Assembly: GCA_003220495.1 (NCBI GenBank)
Contig: QHSP01000034.1
Coordinates: 1 to 64,000, forward strand
Length of the DNA stretch: 64,000 bases
Direction of reading: 5' to 3'
Source: Candidatus Rokuibacteriota bacterium
GTDB lineage: Bacteria > Methylomirabilota > Methylomirabilia > Rokubacteriales > CSP1-6
Of this stretch, positions 1-31,872 are shown in pieces; position 1 is the stretch's first letter, and each line of letters opens with the position of its first letter. The position numbers and the translations under genes were made by a program. The notes below the pieces were generated by a model that made no database searches, had not been told where the DNA came from, and was given only the letters and a program-made list of their open reading frames with translations.

Positions 1-361
1 CCGCGATCTTCTCGCGCGTCTCGGTGGTATTGGCGCTCTTACCGTGCGCCTCGACCGCCGCCTGGTCCTTCCAGATCTCGAAGATCGCGAACTGATGCGG
101 CTGGTCGATGCGCTGCACGACCTCGCAGCGGAGATTGCCGCCTTCCTTGGACGCCGCGTCTCGGTAGCGTCGGAGTATGGTCGCGGCCTCAGCCTTCGAC
201 GTCGGCATGACCTCGACGTAGGTCACGGAGTAGATGTTGCCCGCGATCGGGGCGGGTGTTGACGTCTGAGCGGGCGCCGGCGCCTGGGCACGCGCGTCTC
301 CGATCACGCCGATCGCCATCACGACCAGTCCGAGCAAGAGAACGCGAACGACCATGTCCAT
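1..361 (-). CDS. Secreted antibiotic-biosynthesis-monooxygenase (ABM) domain protein, partial
   Basis: Reading the minus strand from the ATG at 361 gives a hydrophobic signal peptide (MDMVVRVLLLGLVV, cleavage near ARA-QA), then an ABM-type ferredoxin-like fold with typical segments NIYSVTYVEVMP and QFAIFEIWKDQAAVEAH. The frame runs off the left edge, so the C-terminus is missing. A GAGGGGGTG ribosome site precedes the ATG. ABM proteins are small dimeric beta-barrel oxygenases or haem/quinone-handling proteins; the export signal suggests a periplasmic role, but the substrate is unknown. It is divergent from the hydrolase at 412, so the 50-bp gap should hold both promoters. Confidence 0.75.
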   Translation of the reverse strand, partial: MDMVVRVLLLGLVVMAIGVIGDARAQAPAPAQTSTPAPIAGNIYSVTYVEVMPTSKAEAATILRRYRDAASKEGGNLRCEVVQRIDQPHQFAIFEIWKDQAAVEAHGKSANTTETREKIA

Positions 362-411
362 GGCGTCACCCCCTCGCATGCTACCCTAAGCGCTCGAAGC
401 GCGGAGGAGCT

Positions 412-1182
412 ATGTCGGCGGGCGACGTCATCGGGGGAATCGAGCTGGAAGTGGTGCGCCGCGGCGCCGGCCGGCCGGTGCTGCTCCTGCACGGCGCGCA
501 GACCGTCGATCCGCGCGCGCCATTTCTAGAAATGCTCGGCCATCACGCCGAGATCATCGCCCCCTCCCACCCCGGCTTCGGGAGATCGGCGCGCCCGGCG
601 GATTTCGAGACCGTGTACGACCTCGTCCACTTCTATCTCGACTTCCTCGAGGCGCTGCCCCACGAGAAGGTGACCCTGATCGGATTGTCCTTCGGCGGGT
701 GGCTTGCGGCCGAGCTCGCCGTCAAGTGCCGTCATCGGCTCGACGGGCTCGTCCTGGTCGACGCCTTCGGCATCAAGGTCAGCGACCGCGAAACCCCGGA
801 CATCCTCGACGTCTTCAACACCTCGCCGCAGGAGGTTCAGCGGCGGAGCTGGCACGATCCCGCGACCTGGGCGCCTGATCTCGACGCCCTGTCCGACGAC
901 GAGCTCGTGATCCGCGCGCGGAACTGGGAGGCGCTCTGCCTCTACGGCTGGAATCCGTACATGTACAATCCCCAGCTCAAGCGGTGGCTGCAGCGCATCA
1001 CGGTCCCGACGCTCGTCCTGTGGGGCTCGAGCGACGGCATCGTGAAGCCGTCGTACGGACGCGGTTACAGCAGCCTGATCCCCGGCTCGCGCTTCGAGCT
1101 GATCGAGCGCGCCGGGCATCATCCCGAGATCGAGCAGGCCAGAGCCTTCGTGGACACGGTCGTGAAGTTCATGAATCGCTGA
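412..1182 (+). CDS. Alpha/beta-hydrolase fold protein
   Basis: A 256-residue cytosolic hydrolase of the MhpC/epoxide-hydrolase type. The oxyanion strand and HG motif are at about residues 23-28. The nucleophile elbow GLSFGG puts Ser at about 93, the acid is Asp208 in WGSSDG, and the base is His236 in AGHHPE, so the triad is complete. The ATG at 412 is preferred over an upstream in-frame start because GGAGGAG lies directly before it. The next gene, an LLM flavin oxidoreductase, begins 21 bp downstream, so the two are probably one operon, perhaps oxidation followed by hydrolysis of a small organic substrate. The substrate cannot be read from the sequence. Confidence 0.85.
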   Translation: MSAGDVIGGIELEVVRRGAGRPVLLLHGAQTVDPRAPFLEMLGHHAEIIAPSHPGFGRSARPADFETVYDLVHFYLDFLEALPHEKVTLIGLSFGGWLAAELAVKCRHRLDGLVLVDAFGIKVSDRETPDILDVFNTSPQEVQRRSWHDPATWAPDLDALSDDELVIRARNWEALCLYGWNPYMYNPQLKRWLQRITVPTLVLWGSSDGIVKPSYGRGYSSLIPGSRFELIERAGHHPEIEQARAFVDTVVKFMNR

Positions 1183-1203
1183 GGCGGCTCCGGAGAGAGC
1201 ACG

Positions 1204-2400
1204 ATGGACGCTTGGTGGCAGTGCGAAGTCCCGTACCCGTTCGTGCCGCAGGACGTCATCAACGCAACGGATTCCGTCCGCGCGAGCCTACCGAATCGCT
1301 ATTGCGACCCGAAGATCGCCGCCGACCTCTTCGAGGAAGTCATCGACGAGTTCCTCCTGTGCGACGACCTCGGCCTGAACGTCCTGGCGGTCGAGCACCA
1401 CGCCGGCATCAACTCGCTGCTCGGCGCCAATCCGTTGCTGGTCGGCATCCTCGCGCGGCAGACGCGGCAGGTGCGGCTCCTGAGCCTCGGGACGCTGATA
1501 TCCCTCCGAAAAGATCCTGTGCGGGTCGCGGAGGAATACGCGACGGCGGACGTCATCTCGCACGGCCGCCTCGAGATCGGCTTTGTTAAATCGGGCGGCA
1601 CGGAGATGGCGTCGAACAACGCGAATCCCGTGAACAACATCGAGCGCTACTGGGAGGCGATCGACCTCATCAAGAAGGCGCTCAGCCATCACGACGGGCC
1701 GTTCAGCTGGGAGGGCAAGCACTTCACGCACCGCCACGTGAACATCTGGCCGCGGCCGTGGCAGCAGCCACATCCGCGGATGTGGTCGGCCACCGGCGAT
1801 CCGGAGACCGCCGCCGAGGTCGGACGGCGCGGGATGGTGCACGTGCTCGTGCTGCGCGGACCGGAGGGCACGAAGCGCGCCTACGCCGCCCATAGAAAGG
1901 CACGCGCCGAGGCGGGCCTACCGAAGGTGACCACCGACAACTTCGCCTATGCGGCCTTTGTTTATGTCGGCGACACCGACGAGGAGGGGATGCGCGTCGG
2001 GAGCAAGCTCCTCTGGTTCCTCCACACCAGCCTGAAATCGGCTCCGCAGTATTCGAAGCTCCTCCCCGGCAGCGCGCCGCCCCAGGCCGCGCCGCAGATC
2101 TATCGCACGGCGCCCAAGAGCGGAAGCACGGGCGTGATGTCGGCGGGGCAGAACGCCGCACGGCTCACGTCGCTCAGCGCCGAGCAGGCGATGGCGCAGG
2201 GCATTCTCTTCGCCGGCAACCCGGACAGCGTCTACAAGCAGGTGATGGACTTTTACGACAAGGTCGGCGGGTTCGGCCACCTCAGCCTGGTCGGCCGCTC
2301 CGGCTTCATGACCCACGCCGAGTCCGAGAAGAGCATCCGGCTCTTCGCGCAGGAAGTTCTCCCGCGTCTCCGCGAGATCAAGCCGATCACGGCGGACTGA
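1204..2400 (+). CDS. LLM-class flavin-dependent oxidoreductase
   Basis: A 398-residue bacterial-luciferase-like monooxygenase (TIM barrel, FMN or F420). Family features are EHHAGINSLLGANPLLVGILA near the N-terminus, the RVAEEYATADVISHGRLEIGF segment, and FAGNPDSVYKQVMDFYDKVGGFGHL near the C-terminus. It lies just downstream of the alpha/beta hydrolase and is likely co-transcribed. Such enzymes oxidise small organic molecules with reduced flavin and oxygen; the actual substrate is unknown. A second paralogue from a different subfamily lies at 4029-5153 on the other strand. Confidence 0.88.
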   Translation: MDAWWQCEVPYPFVPQDVINATDSVRASLPNRYCDPKIAADLFEEVIDEFLLCDDLGLNVLAVEHHAGINSLLGANPLLVGILARQTRQVRLLSLGTLISLRKDPVRVAEEYATADVISHGRLEIGFVKSGGTEMASNNANPVNNIERYWEAIDLIKKALSHHDGPFSWEGKHFTHRHVNIWPRPWQQPHPRMWSATGDPETAAEVGRRGMVHVLVLRGPEGTKRAYAAHRKARAEAGLPKVTTDNFAYAAFVYVGDTDEEGMRVGSKLLWFLHTSLKSAPQYSKLLPGSAPPQAAPQIYRTAPKSGSTGVMSAGQNAARLTSLSAEQAMAQGILFAGNPDSVYKQVMDFYDKVGGFGHLSLVGRSGFMTHAESEKSIRLFAQEVLPRLREIKPITAD

Positions 2401-2423
2401 CGGCCCCGGCGGTTCCGGGACCC

Positions 2424-3215
2424 TCAGCGTCCCATGAACCTGGGCGCCCGATTCTCTCGGTGCGCGGCCATGCCTTCGTCCACATCGCGACTCCACTCGA
2501 GGGCGTGACGGAGCGCGTCGGCCAGGGCGCGGCCCGCGGCGAAGCCTCCAGCACTGCGGACGTTGATAATGCGCTTGGCTCCTCGCGTGGCGAGTGGACC
2601 ACTGGCACAAATTCGGGCGGCTAGCGCGCGCGCTTCGGGGAGGAGCCGCGCCGCAGGATAGACCGAGAGCACGAGCCCAAGGCGCTCCATCTCCGCCGCG
2701 TCGACCTCGCGCCCCGTGCAGATCAGCTCGAGCGCGCGCGCCCGCCCGACGATCCCCGGCAGCCGAACCGGGCCTCCGGCGCCTGGGAAACCGCCCCAGA
2801 GCGCTTCGGGAAGCGCGAAGGTCGCGTGTGCCGCGGCCAGGCGGATGTCGCAGGCGAGAGAGAGCTCGGCCGCGCCCGCGCGGGCGGCGCCGTTGAACGC
2901 CGCGATCGTAATCTGAGGCAGCGCCTCGATCGCGTCATACAGACGGTTCGCGATGCGGACGAGCTCGAGGATCTGCTCTTTCGTGTAGCTCGCGCGGACC
3001 ACGGGATTCAGAATGCCCATCGAGAAGAACTCGGCGCCGCTGCCGGTGATCACAACGGCCTGAGTTTCCTCGTCGGCGCCGAGGCGATCGACCACGCCCT
3101 GCAGCGTGAGCAGCACGTCGCGCGTCAGCCGGTTCTGATCGCCAGGACGATCGAGCGTGATCGTCATGGCGCGCCCGTCGCGCTCGACGCGGACTTCTTT
3201 CGATCCTTCCGTCAT
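2424..3215 (-). CDS. Enoyl-CoA hydratase/isomerase family protein
   Basis: A 263-residue crotonase-fold protein beginning [14 protein letters not shown]. It shows the usual core: [14 protein letters not shown], then [14 protein letters not shown] (oxyanion-hole strand), and the [24 protein letters not shown] segment that normally reads AVNGxAxGGGxELALACDxRIA. The start at 3215 has GGGAGGA upstream and overlaps the stop of the MerB-like gene as ATGA, which argues for translational coupling. The canonical second glycine loop is altered (ARAGAAE), so activity on a standard enoyl-CoA is not assured. Confidence 0.85.
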
Positions 3216-3883
3216 CGACGTCCTCCCGTGAGGAGACCACCGAAGAGGCGCGAGCCGAGCTTGAAGCCCTCGACCAGCGTGGTGCCGGCTCCTTCCGCCG
3301 TCGGGTTTTCCTCTCGCCACGCCCTCAGATGCTCTTCCGACCGGAAGAAGTTGATCGTCGTTCAGAGCGAGTCGGCGACCTTGCAGCGGACGTCGGCTCG
3401 CTGGCCGATCCAGAGCATGACCTCCGACCCTTCCGGTCCGGCACCTTCCGGCGTCGATCGGAGCTCGAGCAGCTCCGCGCAGTGATGACAGCGCGACCGG
3501 ATCTCGACTGATTGGCCGAGCATCGGCGCGATGCCCAGCGCGTCCACGGCGCAGCACGCGAACCGCTCCTGGCCACCCTGCAGGCGCACCACGAACGGCG
3601 ACGGCGATGCCGAGAAGGGGTATGCCATGTCGACGCGGCCATCCTGGATACGGATCAGGTCATCGTCGTCCAGGGTGACGAGCGCGTGCCGCGTAGCCGC
3701 GGCCGGGGCGTCGGCAAAGCTGGCGACGATGTCCTCTACCGGAATGGGTCCACCGCGGTCCACGAAGAGCTGGAGAACGCGCCTGGACACCGCGGTCTCC
3801 CGCGCCGCCCGCCGGGCTTTCCATCGATCTTCCAGGTCGCCGGCGCCGAGCTCGTCGGCGGTCTTGATCTGAAGGCGCGCCAT
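3212..3883 (-). CDS. MerB-like organomercurial/organometal lyase, predicted selenoprotein (in-frame UGA = Sec174)
   Basis: Read through the UGA at 3362-3364, the frame gives a 223-residue protein: an N-terminal winged-helix-like region (about 30-90) followed by an alkylmercury-lyase domain. [10 protein letters not shown] supplies Cys111 and Asp114, RSRC supplies Cys132, and UGA174 precedes [15 protein letters not shown]. Against MerB from memory (Cys96, Asp99, Cys117, Cys159, then HVHFFAS) the spacing is identical with no gaps, so the UGA falls on catalytic Cys159. The frame stays open and homologous for 49 codons after UGA and ends in an ATGA overlap with the enoyl-CoA hydratase gene. A SECIS-like hairpin follows the UGA. 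MerB cleaves carbon-mercury bonds; no merA, merT or merR lies nearby, so the substrate could be another organometal. The alternative is a pseudogene. Confidence 0.85.
3332..3349 (-). promoter_or_regulatory. Predicted bacterial SECIS hairpin for the MerB-like gene
   Basis: On the minus strand, 12 nt after the UGA, TTCTTCC pairs with GGAAGAG (7 pairs including one terminal U-G) around a GGUC loop. The loop starts 19 nt after the UGA and its first base is G, which fits the known bacterial SECIS rules (short stem, loop 16-37 nt from UGA, G among the first loop bases). The GGUC loop also occurs in the E. coli fdhF SECIS. Confidence 0.7.
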
Positions 3884-3942
3884 CCCGGTAGCAGGATAAA
3901 CTCTGTCGCAAGCCAGGAGGACGCGATGTTCGAGGGCTTCAC

Positions 3943-4032
3943 GGCTACGAGAAAGCCTGGTCGACCTACGTGAGCAATCTGAAGGGCTGCATCGCCCTAC
4001 CCTGCGGCCACTATCCCGCCGAACGCGTCTAG
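3943..4032 (+). pseudogene. Remnant: C-terminal fragment of an alpha/beta hydrolase
   Basis: The frame GYEKAWSTYVSNL followed by ALPCGHYPAE looks like the tail of a haloacetate-dehalogenase-type hydrolase, including the catalytic-His motif GHY-AE, ending at a TAG. No start or body is present upstream, because the MerB-like gene lies there on the other strand. The fragment overlaps the stop end of the neighbouring LLM gene by a few bases. Likely the scar of a rearrangement. Confidence 0.5.
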
Positions 4033-5153
4033 CGAAACCGTGGAATCACTTTCTCCGCGAACAGCTCGAGCGTCTTCAAACACCGATCGCGCTCGAGAAT
4101 GCCCTGGCCGAACAGCAGGAACATCTCGTTGAACGGCACGTGGCGCGCCGCGTTCTCGATCATGCGCGTGACGGTGTCGGCATCGCCGATCAAGAGCGGC
4201 GGGCGGTCCTGGCCGAAGGGGACGGACCACGAGTCCCACATCCACAAGCAGTCCTCGGCCCAGGCCTCCGCCTCGCTCTTGGTGTCGGCGAGCACGAGAT
4301 AGCCGCCCCACGCGGCTTCCTCCCCGCGCGGCAGCTTGCGGCCGTGCTGCTCGGCCACCTCGCGGTAGCGGCTCCAGAGCATCGTGCAGAAGTCCATCTC
4401 GCCGGCCATCACGATGGGCTTGCCGCCTTCCCTCGCCCAGTAGAGGGAGGTCTGCAGGCTGTGCGTGAAGCCCGAATAGACCGGGATCGGATTCTGCAGC
4501 GGGCGCGGCGCGATGCCGACCTCGCGGATCGTGCCGTCAGCGTCCACACCGCGGCCGTACTTCAGATAGACCGGATGCGGATGCGGCTGGCGCTGACCCT
4601 CGGGCGGATACGACCAGTACTTGCCCTTGAAGGAGAACGTGTCGTGGGCCCACGCGGTCTTGATGATCGCCACGCACTCCTCGAAGAGCTCGCGGTTGCG
4701 CGCGTCCTCGTCGCTCTTGCGGTTCCACGGGCCGGTCGCCTTCGCGCCCGGCACGGCCGCGTAGTTCTCGAACCAGCGCGCCTGGTAGCCGCGCACGAAC
4801 GCGACGTTGAGCCGGCCACCGAGCAGATGATCCAGAGTCGCCGCGTGCTCGGCCACGCGGAGCGGGTTGTGCGTGGGCAGCACGTAGCCGAACTGATTGA
4901 TCCTGAGCCGCGGGCCGTGCCGGCCGAGGAACATCGCCATGAGGCCCGGGTCTTGACCGAGCTCGAATCCCTCGATCTGCAGGTGGTGTTCGGGGATACC
5001 AATGCCCGACCAGCCTGTCGCGTCGCACGCGCGCGCGTACTCGCCGATCTCGTCCAGCATCCGCTGGTAGAGCACGGGGTCCTTGCCGGCCATGCCGCGC
5101 TCCAGCTCGCGGCGCCGGCCGATCGTCACGTACATGAACGCGTGGAAGTCCAT
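4029..5153 (-). CDS. LLM-class flavin-dependent oxidoreductase
   Basis: A 374-residue luciferase-family monooxygenase. Diagnostic segments are GIGIPEHHLQIEGF near the N-terminus, QFGYVLPTHNPLRVAEHAATLDHLLGGRLNVAFVRGYQ in the barrel, and LLIGDADTVTRMIENAA near the C-terminus. It is a different subfamily from the one at 1204. It lies 9 bp downstream of an MFS transporter on the same strand, so import and oxidation of the same compound is a reasonable inference. Confidence 0.87.
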   Translation of the reverse strand: MDFHAFMYVTIGRRRELERGMAGKDPVLYQRMLDEIGEYARACDATGWSGIGIPEHHLQIEGFELGQDPGLMAMFLGRHGPRLRINQFGYVLPTHNPLRVAEHAATLDHLLGGRLNVAFVRGYQARWFENYAAVPGAKATGPWNRKSDEDARNRELFEECVAIIKTAWAHDTFSFKGKYWSYPPEGQRQPHPHPVYLKYGRGVDADGTIREVGIAPRPLQNPIPVYSGFTHSLQTSLYWAREGGKPIVMAGEMDFCTMLWSRYREVAEQHGRKLPRGEEAAWGGYLVLADTKSEAEAWAEDCLWMWDSWSVPFGQDRPPLLIGDADTVTRMIENAARHVPFNEMFLLFGQGILERDRCLKTLELFAEKVIPRFR

Positions 5154-5162
5154 CGCCTGACT

Positions 5163-6398
5163 TTATACCACCTGCCGTGACGGCGGCCGGCGCAGCGCCC
5201 AGAACGCGACGCAGCCCACCAGGTAGGAGGCGATCGAGGCCAGGAAGGCGAGCCGATAGCTGCCGAACGCGTCGAAGATCCACCCGGCGGCCCAGGCGCC
5301 GAAGGCCGAGCCGATGCCGGTGCCGACCGTGATCACGCCGAGGATCGTCCCGAGGTTCGGTCCCGGGAAGAGATCGGCCGTCTTCGCGGTGATCGCCGGG
5401 CCGCGCGCGCCCCAGGTGAGGCCGAAGAAGCTCGCGTGAAGCCAGAGGAGCCACGCGTGGTCGGGGCCCGTGATGAAGAGCGCACAGATCACGCCGACGA
5501 TCGAGACCGCGTAGGCGAGGATGGCCGAGAGCTCGCGCCCGATGTAGTCCGAGATCGTCCCGGTGACGATCGTGCCGCCGACGGAAAGCAACGCGCCCAT
5601 GCCGAGCACGCTGGCGGCGTAGAGCTTGTCGAAGCCGGCGTCCACGGCGAACGCGAGCTGGTGCAGCGAGACGAAGAAGCTTCCGAGGCCCGTGCAGAGA
5701 TAGACCGTGAACAGGAGCCAGAAGTGGGGCGTGGACACCGCTTCGGCGAGCGTCCAGTCTCGGCGCGCCGGGCGAGCGTAGGCCGCGCCTTCGCTCGGGG
5801 GCGGCGCGCTCGGCTGAGCGACCGGCGCGGGCGGCTCGTCACGACGAAAGAGCGCGGCGAGCGGCCAGACGAGGAGGCCCATGAACGCGGCCTGCACGAG
5901 ATAGGCGTGCCGCCAGCCGACCGCGAAGATCAGGAGCTGAGCGAGCGGCGCCGACACGGCGCGCGCGAAGCCGTTGGCCGACTGGACGATCGAGATCGCC
6001 ATGCCCCGGTTGCTCACGAAATGGCGCGACAGGATGGGCACGAACACGACGAGCCCGAGGCAGTTGGCTCCGAGCGTCGTGAGGACACCGTAGAGCACGA
6101 CGATCTGCCAGAGCGCGTGGACGTAGCCGCTGCCCAGGAGCCCCAGGGTGAGCACGGTCCCGCCGAGCAGCACGAGACGCCGCGGGCCGAGGCGGTCGAC
6201 CAGCGCGCCGACGAAGGGCGCGCTGATACCGCTCACGAGCGCGGAGACCGAGAAGGCCAGCGACGTCTCGGCGCGACTCCACCGGAATTCCTCGAGGAAG
6301 GCCACGAGAAAGACCGCATAGGAATGCATCAACGCGGCGCTGATGGCGAAGGTCACGAAGGCGCCGCCCAGCAAGAGGCCGCCGCGCCGCGTGGTCAC
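5163..6398 (-). CDS. MFS transporter
   Basis: A 411-residue major facilitator superfamily permease with about 12 hydrophobic segments and the loop motif GALVDRLGPRRLVLLGG between helices 2 and 3. The central cytoplasmic loop (about 185-215) is proline rich. It resembles the oxalate/formate-antiporter-like (OFA) group of carboxylate carriers. It is probably co-transcribed with the LLM oxidoreductase downstream and is divergent from the CoA-ligase operon starting at 6431. The substrate is not known; an organic acid is the best guess. Confidence 0.88.
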   Translation of the reverse strand: MTTRRGGLLLGGAFVTFAISAALMHSYAVFLVAFLEEFRWSRAETSLAFSVSALVSGISAPFVGALVDRLGPRRLVLLGGTVLTLGLLGSGYVHALWQIVVLYGVLTTLGANCLGLVVFVPILSRHFVSNRGMAISIVQSANGFARAVSAPLAQLLIFAVGWRHAYLVQAAFMGLLVWPLAALFRRDEPPAPVAQPSAPPPSEGAAYARPARRDWTLAEAVSTPHFWLLFTVYLCTGLGSFFVSLHQLAFAVDAGFDKLYAASVLGMGALLSVGGTIVTGTISDYIGRELSAILAYAVSIVGVICALFITGPDHAWLLWLHASFFGLTWGARGPAITAKTADLFPGPNLGTILGVITVGTGIGSAFGAWAAGWIFDAFGSYRLAFLASIASYLVGCVAFWALRRPPSRQVV

Positions 6399-6430
6399 GC
6401 GCGGTGCCTATACAATGGGGCCCGGGAGCC

Positions 6431-7993
6431 ATGACGCGACTGACGGACTACACGACCTACGCGGACGGCCAGCGCCACTTCTCGTCCGCGGCGCTGTGGT
6501 CGCTCTTCGACGGCGACCGCGACTCGCTGAACATCGCTGTCGAGTGCATCGACCGGCACGCCGGATCCGGGCGCGTCGCGGTCCGCATCGCCCACGCCGA
6601 CGGGCGCGACGAGACGCTCGACTTCGACGACCTGGCCGACTGGTCCTCGCGCTTCGCGCACTGGCTCGCCTCGCGCGGCGTCGGCCGCGGCGACCGCGTG
6701 GCGATCATGCTCGAGCCCTCGCTCGCCTTCTACGCCGCGCTCTTCGGCACGATCAAGCGCGGCGCCATCGCGGTGCCGCTCTTCACCCTCTTCGGCCCGG
6801 ATGGCATCCGGCTGCGGGCCGAAGACTGCACGCCGAAGCTCCTGCTGACGAACACCGAGAAGGCCGACACCGCGCGCGCTCTCGCCGGCCTCGACGTCGT
6901 GGTGGCCGACGATGCGCTCATGTCCGCGCTCGCGGCGCAGCCGAGCCGCTACGAGGCGCGTACCGCCCCCGACGACCTCGCGGTGTTTCAGTACACGTCG
7001 GGCACGACGCGCGAGCTGCCGGCGGCGGTGCGCCATCCCCAGCGGGCGATCGTCGCGCTCATGGTGGCGGCACTCTACGGCACCGGCATCCGGCCTCGTG
7101 ATCGCTTCTTCTGCCCGTCGTCGCCCGCGTGGGGACACGGACTCTGGCACGGGACGCTCGCGCCGCTGGCGCTCGGCGTCACGACCGCCACCATGGCGGG
7201 CAAGTTCGATCCGGTGAGAATGCTGCGCGCGCTCCAGGAGTACGAGGTGACCAACCTGTCGGCCGCCGCAACTCACTACCGCATGCTGAAGAGCTCCGGT
7301 CAGGCGCCGGCGTACCGTTACGGCATCCGGAAGCTGTCCTTCACCGGCGAGCCGATGGACAGCGCCACGCGCGCGTTCGTCGAGGCGACGTTCGGCGCGC
7401 CGGCGTGCAGCATGTATGGCACCACCGAGGTCGGCGTGATCCTCGCCGATTATCCGGGCGCGGCCGACCACACCGTCAAGCCCGGGGCGCTCGGCAAGCC
7501 GGTCCCCGGCGTCCGCGTCGAGGTGCAGGGCGCGGACGGTCGGCCCTGCCCGCCGAACCAGATCGGCGAGATCAAGGTGTGGCGACGGGGTGCCTGGTTT
7601 CCGACGAAGGATCGAGGCCACGTGGACGGCGATGGCTACTTCTATCACGCCGGACGCGCCGACGACGTCATCATCTCGGCCGGCTGGACGATGAGCGCGA
7701 TCGAGATCGAGGACGTGCTGCTGCGGCATCCGGACGTGCGCGAGGCGGCGGCGATCGGCGTGGCCGATGCCCTCCGGGGCCAGGTGGTCAAGGCCTTCGT
7801 CGTGAGCGCGCGCGGCGGCGACGAAGCGTTCGCTCGCGAGCTGCAGGATTTCACACGCACGCGCCTGAGCCAGCACGAGTACCCGCGCCAGGTGGCGTTC
7901 GTGGCCGCGCTGCCCAAGACGCCGGCCGGGAAGGTCAACCGCAAGGCGCTTCGAGAGTCGGAGGCGAGGGTGGAGCCCACGCATGCCCCGTGA
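6431..7993 (+). CDS. AMP-binding acyl-CoA synthetase
   Basis: A 520-residue ANL-superfamily ligase, close to acetyl/medium-chain acyl-CoA synthetases. The adenylation domain contains YTSGTT followed by RELPAAVRH rather than the usual GxPKGV, so the conserved P-loop lysine position is altered. Further motifs are MYGTTEVGV, KDRGHVDGDGYFYHAGRADDVI (hinge) and PKTPAGKVNRKALRE with the C-terminal catalytic lysine. ATG 6431 is preferred to 6404 because the family N-terminus begins there. Its end overlaps the next gene by 11 bp, indicating one operon with the dehydratase and second ligase. It should activate a carboxylic acid to its CoA thioester. Confidence 0.88.
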   Translation: MTRLTDYTTYADGQRHFSSAALWSLFDGDRDSLNIAVECIDRHAGSGRVAVRIAHADGRDETLDFDDLADWSSRFAHWLASRGVGRGDRVAIMLEPSLAFYAALFGTIKRGAIAVPLFTLFGPDGIRLRAEDCTPKLLLTNTEKADTARALAGLDVVVADDALMSALAAQPSRYEARTAPDDLAVFQYTSGTTRELPAAVRHPQRAIVALMVAALYGTGIRPRDRFFCPSSPAWGHGLWHGTLAPLALGVTTATMAGKFDPVRMLRALQEYEVTNLSAAATHYRMLKSSGQAPAYRYGIRKLSFTGEPMDSATRAFVEATFGAPACSMYGTTEVGVILADYPGAADHTVKPGALGKPVPGVRVEVQGADGRPCPPNQIGEIKVWRRGAWFPTKDRGHVDGDGYFYHAGRADDVIISAGWTMSAIEIEDVLLRHPDVREAAAIGVADALRGQVVKAFVVSARGGDEAFARELQDFTRTRLSQHEYPRQVAFVAALPKTPAGKVNRKALRESEARVEPTHAP

Positions 7994-9119
7994 GCAGTCG
8001 CTCTTCCCGAAGATCACCGAGCAGGGCCTGGACGACCTGCGCCGCCGCATCGGCGTCAAGATCACCGACACGCTCGAGCCCTGGTGCCACGAGGCCACGC
8101 GCGACAACATCCGCCACTACGCGCACGGGATCGGGGACGACAACCCGCTCTGGTGCGATCCCGAGTACGCGGCCGGCACGCGCTGGGGTGGCGTGCTGGC
8201 GCCGCCGAGCTTTCTCTTCGCGACGAGCCGGATCATCTCGGGCTACGTCGGCGGGCTCCCGGGCGTGCACGCGATGTGGGCGGGCGCCGACTGGACGTGG
8301 CATCTGCCGGTGCACCGCAACGACACGGTCTCGACCGAGGCGTGGCTCAAGGAGTTGATCGAGCATCAGACGACGTTCGCCGGCCGTTCGATCCAGCAGG
8401 TCTATCACGTCGATTTCTTCAACCAGCGCGGCGACCTCGTGGCCGCTGCCGACAGCTGGTGCTTCCGCACCGATCGCGACCAGGCGCGCGAAGCCGGGAC
8501 CAAGTACACCGCGGTGAAGGCGAAGCCGCCAAAGCGCTACACGGACGAGGAGCTCGCCGACGTCTATCGGCTCTATGCGACCGAGCAGATTCGCGGGCCC
8601 GTCGCGCGGTACTGGGACGACGTGCGCGAGGGCGACCGACTGCCTACCATGGCGAAGGGGCCAATGACGGTGACGGGCTTCATCGCCTACGCCCAGGGCT
8701 GGGGCGGCCTCTACATCCGGGCGAACAAGCTCGCGTGGAAGCAGGTCCACCGTCATTCGGGCCTTGGGATCAAGAACCGGTTCGGGATCCCCGACTGCCC
8801 GGAGCGCGTCCACTGGGAGCAGGAGTTCGCGACCCTGGTCGGCGCGCCCGGCGCGTACGACTACGGCCCCGAGCGATGCTCGTGGCTGACTCACCATCTG
8901 ACCAACTGGATGGCCGACGACGGGTTCCTCCGCCGCGCGCACTGCAAGATCCGCCGCCACAACCCCGAGGGCGACACCTTGCGGATCGACGGCAGCGTGA
9001 CGAAGAAGCTCGTCGAGAACGGCCGCCACCTCGTCGAGATCGAGCAGGAAGCGCGCAATCAGGACGGCGAGCTCTCGGTGCTGGGCAGCGGCGTCGTCGA
9101 GCTGCCCAAGCGCGGCTGA
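7983..9119 (+). CDS. MaoC/FAS1-like dehydratase domain protein
   Basis: A 378-residue double-hotdog protein. The N-terminal half (about 20-150) is a FAS1-like dehydratase domain with GIGDDNPLWCDPEYAAGTRWGGVLAPPSF, and the second half continues as a MaoC-like domain. Such proteins hydrate or dehydrate acyl-CoA intermediates, as in mesaconyl-CoA hydratase-type and 3-hydroxyacyl dehydratase families. It overlaps the upstream ligase by 11 bp and is followed after 12 bp by another ligase, so all three probably act on one acid-degradation route. Confidence 0.85.
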   Translation: MPREQSLFPKITEQGLDDLRRRIGVKITDTLEPWCHEATRDNIRHYAHGIGDDNPLWCDPEYAAGTRWGGVLAPPSFLFATSRIISGYVGGLPGVHAMWAGADWTWHLPVHRNDTVSTEAWLKELIEHQTTFAGRSIQQVYHVDFFNQRGDLVAAADSWCFRTDRDQAREAGTKYTAVKAKPPKRYTDEELADVYRLYATEQIRGPVARYWDDVREGDRLPTMAKGPMTVTGFIAYAQGWGGLYIRANKLAWKQVHRHSGLGIKNRFGIPDCPERVHWEQEFATLVGAPGAYDYGPERCSWLTHHLTNWMADDGFLRRAHCKIRRHNPEGDTLRIDGSVTKKLVENGRHLVEIEQEARNQDGELSVLGSGVVELPKRG

Positions 9120-9131
9120 GCGCGGCTCGCG

Positions 9132-10760
9132 ATGGACCCGCGCGCGGTCACCCGCTTCGGCGATCTGACCGACGCCGCCGCCGCGTGGTGGGGCGACCGC
9201 GAGGCGTTGGTCTTTCGCGATAGCCGCTACACGTTCCGTCAGATCGCCACCGAAGTCGATCGCGTCGCGCGCGGCTTGATCCACGTCGGGGTCCGCCCGG
9301 GCGAGAAGGTCGCGATCTGGCTGCTCAACTGCCCGGAATGGATCTTCGCGATGTTCGCCCTGGCCAAGATCGGCGCCGTCCACGTGCCGATCAATACGCG
9401 ATTCAGGACCGTGGACCTCGGCCTGGTCCTCGAGCGGTCGAGCGCGACGACCGTGATCACCCACGACGTTTCCGGGCCCGTCGACTATCTGGGGATGATT
9501 CGTGAGCTCGTCGACTTCGACGACCCGAGCGGCGACCGTCGCGTGCGAAGCGCGCGGCTGCCCGATCTCGAGCGTGTGATCGTCGTGAGCGACAGGAGAT
9601 ATCCCGGCGCCTGGAGCTGGCCCGACCTGCTGGCGTCGGCAAGCACGGTGCCGCCGGCGACGCTGGCCGCTCGGGAGTCGGCGGTCCGCCCGACAGACAC
9701 GGTGTTCATCATGTACACGTCGGGGACGACCGGATTCCCGAAGGGTGTGATGCGCGACCACACGATGCTCGCGCATCTGGCCGACCGCTATCGCCGTCTC
9801 CAGTCAACCGAGCGCGACGTCTTCGTCAACTATCTACCGCTCTTCCACATCTTTGGGTACATCGAGGGGCCGCTCGGCTCGATGCTCACGGGCTACCGGC
9901 AGATCCTCACCGACACGTTCGATCCCGACGAGACGCTCGACCTCGTGGAGCGCGAGGGGGCCACGCACATCGACGGCTTCGACACCCACCTGAAGCTCCT
10001 GATCGACGCCCAGGAAGCCCGGCCGCGCAATCTGTCGACCTTGCGCACGGGCGTGATCGCGGGCGGCGCCGCGAGCGCGACGCCACTCGTGTATCGCGCC
10101 CGCAAGGTGCTGGCGCCGCTGCGCCATCTGACCGCGTACGGTATGACCGAGGTCGGCGCGACGATCTCGCTGTCGTTCCTCGACTCGACGGAGGAGCAGG
10201 CGTGCGAAGCCTCAGGCGCTCCGTGCGAGGGCTTCGAGGTCCGCGTGATTGATCCCGACACCGGGCTTGATCAGCCCCGTGGCACGCCGGGCGAGGTCGT
10301 GGTGCGGACGCGCTATCTGATGCAGGGCTACTACCGAGATCCCGAGGCGACCGCGCGCGCGATCGACACCGAAGGATGGTTCCACACCGGTGACGCCGGC
10401 ATCCTGCGCGCGGACGGCCACCTTCGCTTCGTCGGTCGCTACAAGGACATGATCAAGGTCGGCGGCGAGAACGTCGACCCGACGGAGGTCGAGAGCTATC
10501 TGAGCACCTACCCGGGCGTGAGCCAGGCAGCCTTCGTCAGCTATCCGGAGGCGCGACTCGGCGAGGTCGGTGTCGCCTTCGTCCAGGTCGTCCCCGGCGC
10601 CAGCGTGGATCCGGATGGCTTGATCGCGTTCTGTCGCGGCCGGATCGCGAGCTTCAAGATCCCGCGGCACGTGCTCATCGTCGACGAGCTGCCGATGACG
10701 TCGAGCGGCAAGGTGCAGAAGGCGCGGCTGCGCGAGGTGGCCCGCGAGCGACTCGGCTGA
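9132..10760 (+). CDS. Long/medium-chain-type acyl-CoA ligase (AMP-binding)
   Basis: A 542-residue FadD-like ligase with the complete ANL motif set: MYTSGTTGFPKGVMRDH (P-loop), AYGMTEVG, GWFHTGDAGILRADGHLRFVGRYKDMIKVGGENVDP (hinge region), and PMTSSGKVQKARLRE with the catalytic lysine. Unlike the first ligase of this operon its P-loop is canonical. Third gene of the 6431-10760 operon. An aromatic or branched acid substrate is possible; the sequence does not decide. Confidence 0.9.
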   Translation: MDPRAVTRFGDLTDAAAAWWGDREALVFRDSRYTFRQIATEVDRVARGLIHVGVRPGEKVAIWLLNCPEWIFAMFALAKIGAVHVPINTRFRTVDLGLVLERSSATTVITHDVSGPVDYLGMIRELVDFDDPSGDRRVRSARLPDLERVIVVSDRRYPGAWSWPDLLASASTVPPATLAARESAVRPTDTVFIMYTSGTTGFPKGVMRDHTMLAHLADRYRRLQSTERDVFVNYLPLFHIFGYIEGPLGSMLTGYRQILTDTFDPDETLDLVEREGATHIDGFDTHLKLLIDAQEARPRNLSTLRTGVIAGGAASATPLVYRARKVLAPLRHLTAYGMTEVGATISLSFLDSTEEQACEASGAPCEGFEVRVIDPDTGLDQPRGTPGEVVVRTRYLMQGYYRDPEATARAIDTEGWFHTGDAGILRADGHLRFVGRYKDMIKVGGENVDPTEVESYLSTYPGVSQAAFVSYPEARLGEVGVAFVQVVPGASVDPDGLIAFCRGRIASFKIPRHVLIVDELPMTSSGKVQKARLREVARERLG

Positions 10761-30588: not shown

Positions 30589-31872
30589 GTGGACGATCCT
30601 CTCGGGGCCAGCGCCGCCGTCGACGCAGTCTACCGGTCCGACTGGGGCCGGATCGTCGCCACCTTGATCCGACTCGTCGGCGATTTCGACGTGGCCGAAG
30701 AAGCCTCCCAGGAGGCCTTCGCGGTGGCGGTCGACCAGTGGGCGACCTCCGGCGTGCCCGAGTTTCCCCGCGCCTGGATCATCCAGACGGCCCGCCACAA
30801 GGCCATCGATCGGATCCGGCGCCGGGCGCGGCTCGATGAGAAGCTGGACGCCTACGCCGCCTCCGAGTCGACCCGCGCCGACGAGGCGCCGGACTACGAT
30901 CCCGACCAGATCCCCGACGATCGCCTCCGGCTCATCTTCACCTGCTGCCACCCCTCGCTCTCGCTCGAGGCCCAGGTGGCGCTAACTCTTCGGACGCTCG
31001 GAGGTCTGGAAACGGACGCGATCGCGCGGGCATTCCTGGTGCCGGTCGCGACGATGGCCCAGCGGCTGGTTCGCGCGAAGGGCAAGATCCGCGATGCGCG
31101 CATCCCGTACTCGGTGCCCGATACGAATGACATGCCGGCCCGCCTCGACGCGGTGCTGACCGTGATCTATCTCATCTTCACGGAAGGCTACGCGCCGACC
31201 CGCGGCGAACAGCTCGTGCGGACCGACCTGTGCGCCGAGGCCATTCGCCTCGGGCGCCTCGTCCGCGCGCTGCTAGTCTCGCCGCCGGCCGAGGCGACGG
31301 GCCTCCTGGCCCTCATGCTGCTCCACGATTCACGGCGCGAGGCGCGGCTCGACGACGCCGGCGATCTCGTCTTGCTCGAGGATCAGGATCGTCGCCGCTG
31401 GAATCAGGCGCAGATCGCCGAAGCGCTGCCGCTCGTCGAGCAGGCGCTGCGGGGCGGCCCGGGGCCGTTTGCGCTCCAGGCCGCGATCGCGGCCGTGCAC
31501 TGTCAGGCGTCACGGCCCGAGATGACGGACTGGCCCCAGATCGTTCGCCTCTACGATCTGCTCGAGCGCGCGCAGCCTTCCCCGGTCGTGTCGTTGAACC
31601 GCGCGGCGGCTGTCGCCATGGTCGAGGGCCCGCGGGCGGCGCTGGCTCTCATCGACCAGCTCGCCGCCGGCAACGAGCTCGACCAGTATCATCTGCTCCA
31701 CGCCGCGCGAGCCGATCTGCTGCGGCGCCTCGGCTCCGACGCGGAGGCGGCGAAGAGCTATGCGCGGGCGCTCTCGCTCGCCACGAATGATGCCGAGCGC
31801 CGATTCCTCGAGCGACGCCTGCGCGAAGTCCAGCGGCACACGGTCCGCGCTCCGGCTGCGCCGTCGGCGTAA
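30589..31872 (+). CDS. ECF-type sigma factor with C-terminal extension (ECF42-like, DUF6596)
   Basis: A 427-residue sigma factor: region 2 (about 10-75) with LVGDFDVAEEASQEAFAVAVDQW, region 4 (about 115-170) with VALTLRTLGGLETDAIARAFLVP, then a long C-terminal domain with IYLIFTEGYAP and TPR-like helices ending in ARAL. This extension typifies ECF42, which in characterised cases controls DGPF-protein genes without an anti-sigma factor. Start GTG 30589. Two DGPF genes lie divergently next to it, as expected. Confidence 0.9.
   Translation: MDDPLGASAAVDAVYRSDWGRIVATLIRLVGDFDVAEEASQEAFAVAVDQWATSGVPEFPRAWIIQTARHKAIDRIRRRARLDEKLDAYAASESTRADEAPDYDPDQIPDDRLRLIFTCCHPSLSLEAQVALTLRTLGGLETDAIARAFLVPVATMAQRLVRAKGKIRDARIPYSVPDTNDMPARLDAVLTVIYLIFTEGYAPTRGEQLVRTDLCAEAIRLGRLVRALLVSPPAEATGLLALMLLHDSRREARLDDAGDLVLLEDQDRRRWNQAQIAEALPLVEQALRGGPGPFALQAAIAAVHCQASRPEMTDWPQIVRLYDLLERAQPSPVVSLNRAAAVAMVEGPRAALALIDQLAAGNELDQYHLLHAARADLLRRLGSDAEAAKSYARALSLATNDAERRFLERRLREVQRHTVRAPAAPSA

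Follow-up and report, generated by a model that had tools for sequence, protein, structure and literature searches.

A MerB-like lyase gene with an in-frame UGA, predicted to encode selenocysteine, at the catalytic Cys159 position in a Rokubacterial genome

In the organomercurial lyase MerB, mercury is held by Cys96 and Cys159, the carbon receives its proton from Asp99, and the Hg(II) is taken away by thiols. Selenols are ionised at neutral pH, and their bond to mercury is stronger, yet exchanges fast. Mercury-selenium chemistry is usually discussed to explain why mercury is toxic to selenoenzymes; a selenocysteine (Sec) lyase would make that affinity catalytic. An alkylmercury lyase MerB-like selenoprotein is named in a 2022 review (PMC9312934), MerP selenoproteins are catalogued (PMC2398784), and a 2026 review (PMC13188914) catalogues SaoL as a selenoprotein with the motif CU, as well as a UxxU protein and a putative mercuric transport selenoprotein, and gives 63 predicted selenoprotein genes for one Methylomirabilota genome.

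Here we describe a MerB-like gene from the Rokubacterial genome of an uncultured soil bacterium of the same phylum, within a window (the whole stretch of DNA analysed) of 64,000 nucleotides. Judging from sequence comparisons, we put at roughly three in four the probability that it encodes a MerB-family enzyme in which residue 174 is Sec, inserted by the cell's own SelA, SelB, SelC, and SelD with the help of a 3′ hairpin, and which acts as a soft organometal lyase, probably an organomercurial one. Within the literature covered, the apparent novelties are a separate full-length family together with its SECIS element, a putative return from Sec to Cys in which the SECIS is lost, and mer operons rich in selenium; that literature, which extends to neither Haft & Gwadz 2023 nor Haft & Tolstoy 2025, yielded no Sec-containing MerB in Rokubacteria and no mer operon combining a Sec MerB with a glutaredoxin and MerP.

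Comparison with MerB, SaoL, and other selenoprotein families

A minus-strand open reading frame (3883-3362) codes for 173 residues up to a TGA, beyond which the same frame is open for 49 codons more, to a TGA stop at 3212-3214; the whole gene (3215-3883) thus has 223 codons, including one internal UGA at codon 174 (3362-3364). The first-pass annotation had claimed both this continuation and its homology to the rest of MerB, and both are borne out, with the PF03243 match rising from 58.6 bits (profile positions 1-82 of 126) up to the UGA to 103.7 bits (1-126 of 126) with read-through, against a gathering cut-off of 27 bits. Aligned by phmmer to MerB proteins of solved structure, with positions counted by hand, codons 111 (Cys, 3551-3553), 114 (Asp, 3542-3544), 132 (Cys, 3488-3490), and 174 correspond to MerB C96, D99, C117, and C159, so that C96 and D99 of the catalytic triad are kept and C159 is replaced by the UGA. 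The MerB spacing of these residues, which had been described as reproduced without any gap, is conserved in length, although one insertion and one equal-sized deletion relative to MerB lie between residues 132 and 174.

Compared with MerB (PF03243; PDB 3f2f, 1s6l, and 5c17), the lyase has the same fold, the C96-D99-C117 equivalents, and full length, and differs in having UGA (predicted Sec) for Cys159 and Cys for W95. Its closest PDB matches are MerB2 and MerB, and a Foldseek search with a predicted model returned 11 PDB matches at E<=0.001, all of them MerB. The modelling input was the window protein plus three relatives; the model (pLDDT 66.8, pTM 0.56) has low confidence around the Sec position (162-174), and the active-site geometry is therefore not readable from it. 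The curated cut-offs for canonical MerB are missed by a wide interval (62.4 of 193 bits for NF009710 and 43.6 of 200 for NF033555).

The other close comparison is with SaoL (NF040728), the MerB-like organometallic lyase of the SAO system, which bears out the mention, in the first-pass annotation, of MerB-like lyases annotated in a selenoprotein-associated system. Both would be MerB-like selenoproteins, but the window gene lies far below the curated SaoL cut-off (57.9 versus 140 bits), which rules out membership, and none of the 388 genomes searched passes it; about 290 of these are from outside the phylum, where the SaoL model was the one used for genome searches. The SaoL model also ends where the window-lyase family has about 50 more residues, and a Pfam scan of the nine genes at window positions 2-10760 found no ABC-transporter or thioredoxin-like gene that would make an SAO neighbourhood. 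Because one 38-bit match puts the UGA codon (residue 99) of a distant family member, L072, opposite position 159, the last of the SaoL model, the Sec of SaoL may occupy the same site as the UGA of the window family.

Two further selenoprotein families touch the relatives and not the window copy. The UxxU protein (NF041115), like MerP, is an operon partner in relatives, the L132 copy scoring 110.3 against a cut-off of 95, and the window genome has no copy at E<=1e-12. Similarly, a UxxC partner resembling the Uxx-star/YruB-type glutaredoxin-like selenoproteins adjoins the lyase in relatives and not the window copy; the relatives' UxxC glutaredoxin falls under the named cut-offs (81.6 of 88.55 for TIGR02196 and 52.4 of 66 for NF041212).

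Relatives, gene neighbourhoods, and substrate

Homologues at E<=0.001 occur in 50 of 99 related genomes, and PF03243 matches in 50 of the 95 genomes of the phylum; no relative was found among 2.9 million viral contigs searched. By our own count there are 71 PF03243 matches, of which 66 were used in the neighbour counts: 34 main-family genes with UGA, 19 UGA genes of a second subfamily, and 13 Cys genes. The five left out are G056:C47 (site missing), G081:C52 and G043:C175 (ending before the site), G026:C120:671-778 (a second fragment of a gene already counted), and G057:C167, which is partial though it has the UGA. One gene, G055_L074, comes from the E<=0.001 homologue search alone, and loci L020, L021, and L022 were taken as belonging to the same genomes as G003:C458, G006:C124, and G002:C44, which are contigs from the genus of the window genome, and add no extra evidence.

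Some of these relatives lie in mer-type operons. Of the 34 main-family UGA genes, 13 have a UxxC glutaredoxin gene on the same strand no more than 1.5 kb away, as do 10 of the 13 Cys genes and none of the 19 second-subfamily genes; counting a UxxU protein or MerT within 4 kb as well raises these numbers to 14/34 and 11/13, with the second subfamily still at 0/19. For the other 20 of 34 main-family UGA genes no mer-type neighbour was found, and some of the genes without a neighbour are on short contigs. Conversely, 23 of the 79 UxxC glutaredoxin genes of the phylum are at lyase loci. The fullest locus, L159 (genome G062), has the order ArsR, MerB(Sec), MerF, Grx(UxxC), MerT-like, and MerP-like (GMTUxxU), and the MerF of its sister locus L066 scores over the NCBIfam cut-off; MerT-like proteins are mostly under cut-off, with that of Pfam passed in one of 95 genomes. 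ArsR and MerR regulators are both found beside the relatives' lyases. Operon-borne main-family copies are preceded by the dyad AGTCTGNAGTTACTACAGACT. Exact copies of it occur at 13 of 167 loci, or at six distinct places when sorted by hand (G033, G048, G006, G043, G003:C121, and G026), and it may resemble MerR-type operators. At the three loci checked, a SECIS-like hairpin also accompanies each of the Grx and UxxU genes.

Two other kinds of candidate selenoprotein were seen around these loci. MerP-like GMTUxxUP proteins (L026, L132, L159, L050, and L164) would have two Sec residues in the metal-binding motif and lie downstream of a lyase and a Sec-glutaredoxin. Loci L091 and L150-L154 code for flavoproteins resembling MerA and lipoamide dehydrogenase, in which C-x4-U replaces the redox-active pair of Cys residues (TCVNRGUIPKK), and at L091 a MerB C-terminal remnant is just upstream of the flavoprotein gene.

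The surroundings of the window copy are of another kind. Downstream, an enoyl-CoA hydratase/isomerase gene (2424-3215, minus strand) begins at an ATG (3213-3215) that overlaps the final stop of the lyase as ATGA, in the style of coupled genes, and this overlap, leaving no gap, fits read-through of the UGA. Upstream on the same strand, a Pfam scan identified a luciferase-like monooxygenase (4029-5153) and an MFS transporter (5163-6398), and the wider cluster includes further luciferase-like monooxygenases, two CoA ligases, a MaoC-type dehydratase, and a hydrolase. No mer transport, regulator, or reductase gene adjoins the lyase, and searches of the window genome found no MerT, no UxxU protein, and no Sec-glutaredoxin at the cut-offs applied (1e-14 for the last), with all MerA-type matches under the MerA cut-off. 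We also looked at positions 3895-3912, ahead of the window copy, for what might be left of a MerR-type promoter; the 21-nt dyad does not occur in that stretch, and we make no such claim.

From family, fold, and the relatives' neighbours, the window gene probably encodes an organomercurial (organometal) lyase. That its product is a carbon-metal lyase of this family is very likely, and mercury is the favoured, less secure, suggestion for the working substrate of the window copy. By analogy with MerB, Cys111 and Sec174 would hold the soft metal of a carbon-metal compound, Asp114 would donate a proton to the carbon as it leaves, and carriers with thiol or selenol groups would take over the released metal ion; the likeliest substrates are organomercurials or some other soft organometal of that kind. 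The earlier proposal of a selenoenzyme acting on mercury or another metal is thus supported by the family, the fold, and the relatives' mer neighbours (MerT, MerF, MerP-like, and MerR/ArsR); the genes around the window copy lend it no such support, and the copy may be a stand-alone descendant within a CoA-ligase and luciferase-like monooxygenase cluster.

These surroundings are what give weight to the main alternative, that the MerB-fold selenoenzyme no longer acts on mercury, the window copy and two near relatives having been recruited to a catabolic cluster to cleave some other carbon-heteroatom or carbon-metal bond. The near orthologues G003_L023 and G007_L024 have most of the window neighbourhood in common, including the CoA ligases, luciferase-like monooxygenases, MaoC/enoyl-CoA hydratases, and hydrolase; the ATGA overlap suggests coupling to the hydratase, and neither mer partners in the genome nor the dyad of the operon-borne relatives were found. 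On the other hand, every MerB catalytic residue is kept, with Sec in place of Cys159, the near clades are in mer-type operons, and a detoxification role is still available to stand-alone lyase genes; we consider recruitment to a different substrate unlikely, though it deserves to be kept in mind, and prefer the organomercurial lyase.

If the organomercurial reading is right, the presence of Sec, which binds mercury more strongly and exchanges fast, leads us to expect faster capture, and removal of the metal may need selenol carriers, a part that the UxxC glutaredoxin and UxxU protein could play. A tentative extension, which we hold to be somewhat on the doubtful side, is that organomercury detoxification in this phylum was rebuilt on selenium, passing from a Sec159 lyase to a UxxC glutaredoxin to a UxxU MerP-like carrier, each with its own SECIS, with both catalytic Cys replaced by Sec in G013_L072 and G055_L074, and with the window copy having left the operon. 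Such a relay would use the strong but exchange-labile Se-Hg bond to speed cleavage and hand-over. Against a strict selenol relay, Cys lyases also lie beside Sec-glutaredoxin genes, and most main-family UGA lyases, as counted above, have no such neighbour.

Decoding of the UGA codon

The window genome (5.98 Mb, 98.4% complete) has a tRNA-Sec gene scoring 69.8 bits, over the cut-off, with anticodon TCA, and near it on the same contig are selA (591 bits) and selB (356 bits); with selD (337 bits), all four of the selA, selB, selC, and selD genes that the first-pass annotation had suggested looking for are present. The selD gene (G000:C1:77537-78481) has one in-frame TGA of its own and is a selenoprotein gene too. 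Across the phylum, tRNA-Sec is present in 79 of 95 genomes, and by hand tally it went undetected in 5 of the 39 genomes with UGA forms, all five being drafts, and was found in 10 of the 11 genomes with Cys forms only; it therefore does not tell UGA genomes from Cys genomes. The weakest tRNA-Sec of the family (G014:C34:8237-8339; 59.4 versus about 70 bits) is in the genome of a Cys revertant lyase.

Just 3′ of the UGA is a predicted SECIS hairpin (3332-3349, minus strand) with seven pairs, the lowest a U-G, and a GGUC loop (3339-3342) that follows the UGA after 19 nt and so begins at the 20th nucleotide. Published bacterial SECIS rules, as quoted in the 2026 review, ask for a loop of 3-9 nt, a stem of 4-16 bp, a G in loop position 1 or 2, a spacing of 16-37 nt, and a minimum free energy of -7.5 or lower (PMC13188914); the window hairpin agrees with them in loop, stem, and spacing, and its core folds at -7.8 kcal/mol. 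The hairpin is nearly invariant in the main family (UUCUUCC-GGUC-GGAAGAG), and a stem of at least six contiguous pairs is present in 46 of 48 UGA forms (G058_L044, cut before the hairpin, is outside the 48) versus none of 13 Cys forms, with the same counts for stem, G, and energy combined; 97.0% of stem-pair cells are formed in the UGA forms and 60.4% in the Cys forms. The codons of the FFRSE motif are correspondingly uniform, with CGG in 40/41 (32% elsewhere in the same genes), TCG in 38/38 (45%), and GAA, the first Glu codon after the UGA, in 39/39 (18%), although binomial values for this codon choice overstate its significance because the genes are related.

Folding energy speaks less clearly. 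Relative to synonymous-codon shuffles, the mean z is -1.57 for the 48 UGA forms and -0.38 for the 13 Cys forms, and only 4 of the 48 UGA forms beat 99% of their own shuffles; within the 60 nt after the UGA in the window, the lowest-energy fold is another structure at -12.2, which counts against the hairpin. Compensatory changes are few, and with a stem so nearly constant there is little covariation to see. Constraint shows better in the codon counts than in folding energy. A scan of the window for further selenoprotein genes proved over-strict, missing the lyase gene itself.

Whether relatives have Cys or UGA at the catalytic site was another check named at the outset, and codon by codon all 53 UGA genes have the UGA at the Cys159 position and all 13 non-UGA homologues in the 95 phylum genomes have Cys there, as do 4 of 4 plasmid MerB sequences. 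In five pairs, dN/dS is 0.09-0.19 over the 45-49 codons after the UGA, compared with 0.10-0.36 for the 80 codons before it; a UGA at one site in many diverged genomes, followed by sequence under purifying selection, is more than chance would give. Together with the machinery, the SECIS, the codon constraint, and the tree described below, these comparisons uphold the proposal of selenocysteine at the catalytic Cys159 site, and we regard it as almost certain that codon 174 is read in this way: the hairpin would direct SelA, SelB, SelC, and SelD to decode it, giving a 223-residue product.

An open frame past a UGA does not by itself name the inserted residue, and suppression or a changed code could in principle insert another; we reject this as highly improbable because Cys is the site's alternative and tRNA-Sec is present, along with SelA, SelB, SelD, and the SECIS-like hairpin after the UGA. 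A standard gene finder would end the gene at the UGA. On that reading the codon is a normal stop, MerB is here truncated or decaying, and the homologous stretch beyond is a remnant; one degenerate family copy does exist elsewhere (G056:C47). But the purifying selection beyond the UGA, the hairpin, the stop-start overlap at 3212-3215, the identical site across the family, and the complete Sec machinery leave this reading with scarcely any probability, and we set it aside in favour of selenocysteine. Since ordinary gene finding ends such genes at the UGA, we infer that mercury-cycle surveys probably credit these soil bacteria with less lyase capacity than they have.

Predicted exchange of selenocysteine and cysteine

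The relatives' seleno-mer operons, described above, and the Cys revertants and double-UGA variants go beyond what had been noted from the window. On a tree built with the site masked and three short rows left out, the Sec/Cys label needs four changes. The Cys genes G014_L036 and G024_L038 fall within the Sec clade as sisters of the Sec gene G046_L040 (SH-aLRT 88), within an eight-row clade with support of 99, and their hairpins are broken, with one and zero contiguous pairs, respectively. Cys genes nested in this way, with a broken hairpin, are what a change from Sec back to Cys, accompanied by loss of the SECIS, would be expected to leave. Such natural Sec/Cys pairs in one family offer a direct test of what selenium gains in C-Hg cleavage and metal hand-over.

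The second MerB-like subfamily (L073, L076-L089, L124-L126, and L128) has QCGFE at the Cys96-Asp99 site, placing Glu at Asp99, and FLUTGMNLFRSEEH around the UGA; its SECIS is as in the main family, with the hairpin CUCUUCC-GGUC-GGAAGAG. Finally, two genes have UGA at both the Cys96 and Cys159 positions, L072 (G013:C148, ~31050-31433; LUGLD..ALTUNGMNLF) and L074 (G055:C471:512-1051; SPUAAD..AFURKSVFF), and with a possible hairpin after each UGA they are candidate double-Sec lyases.
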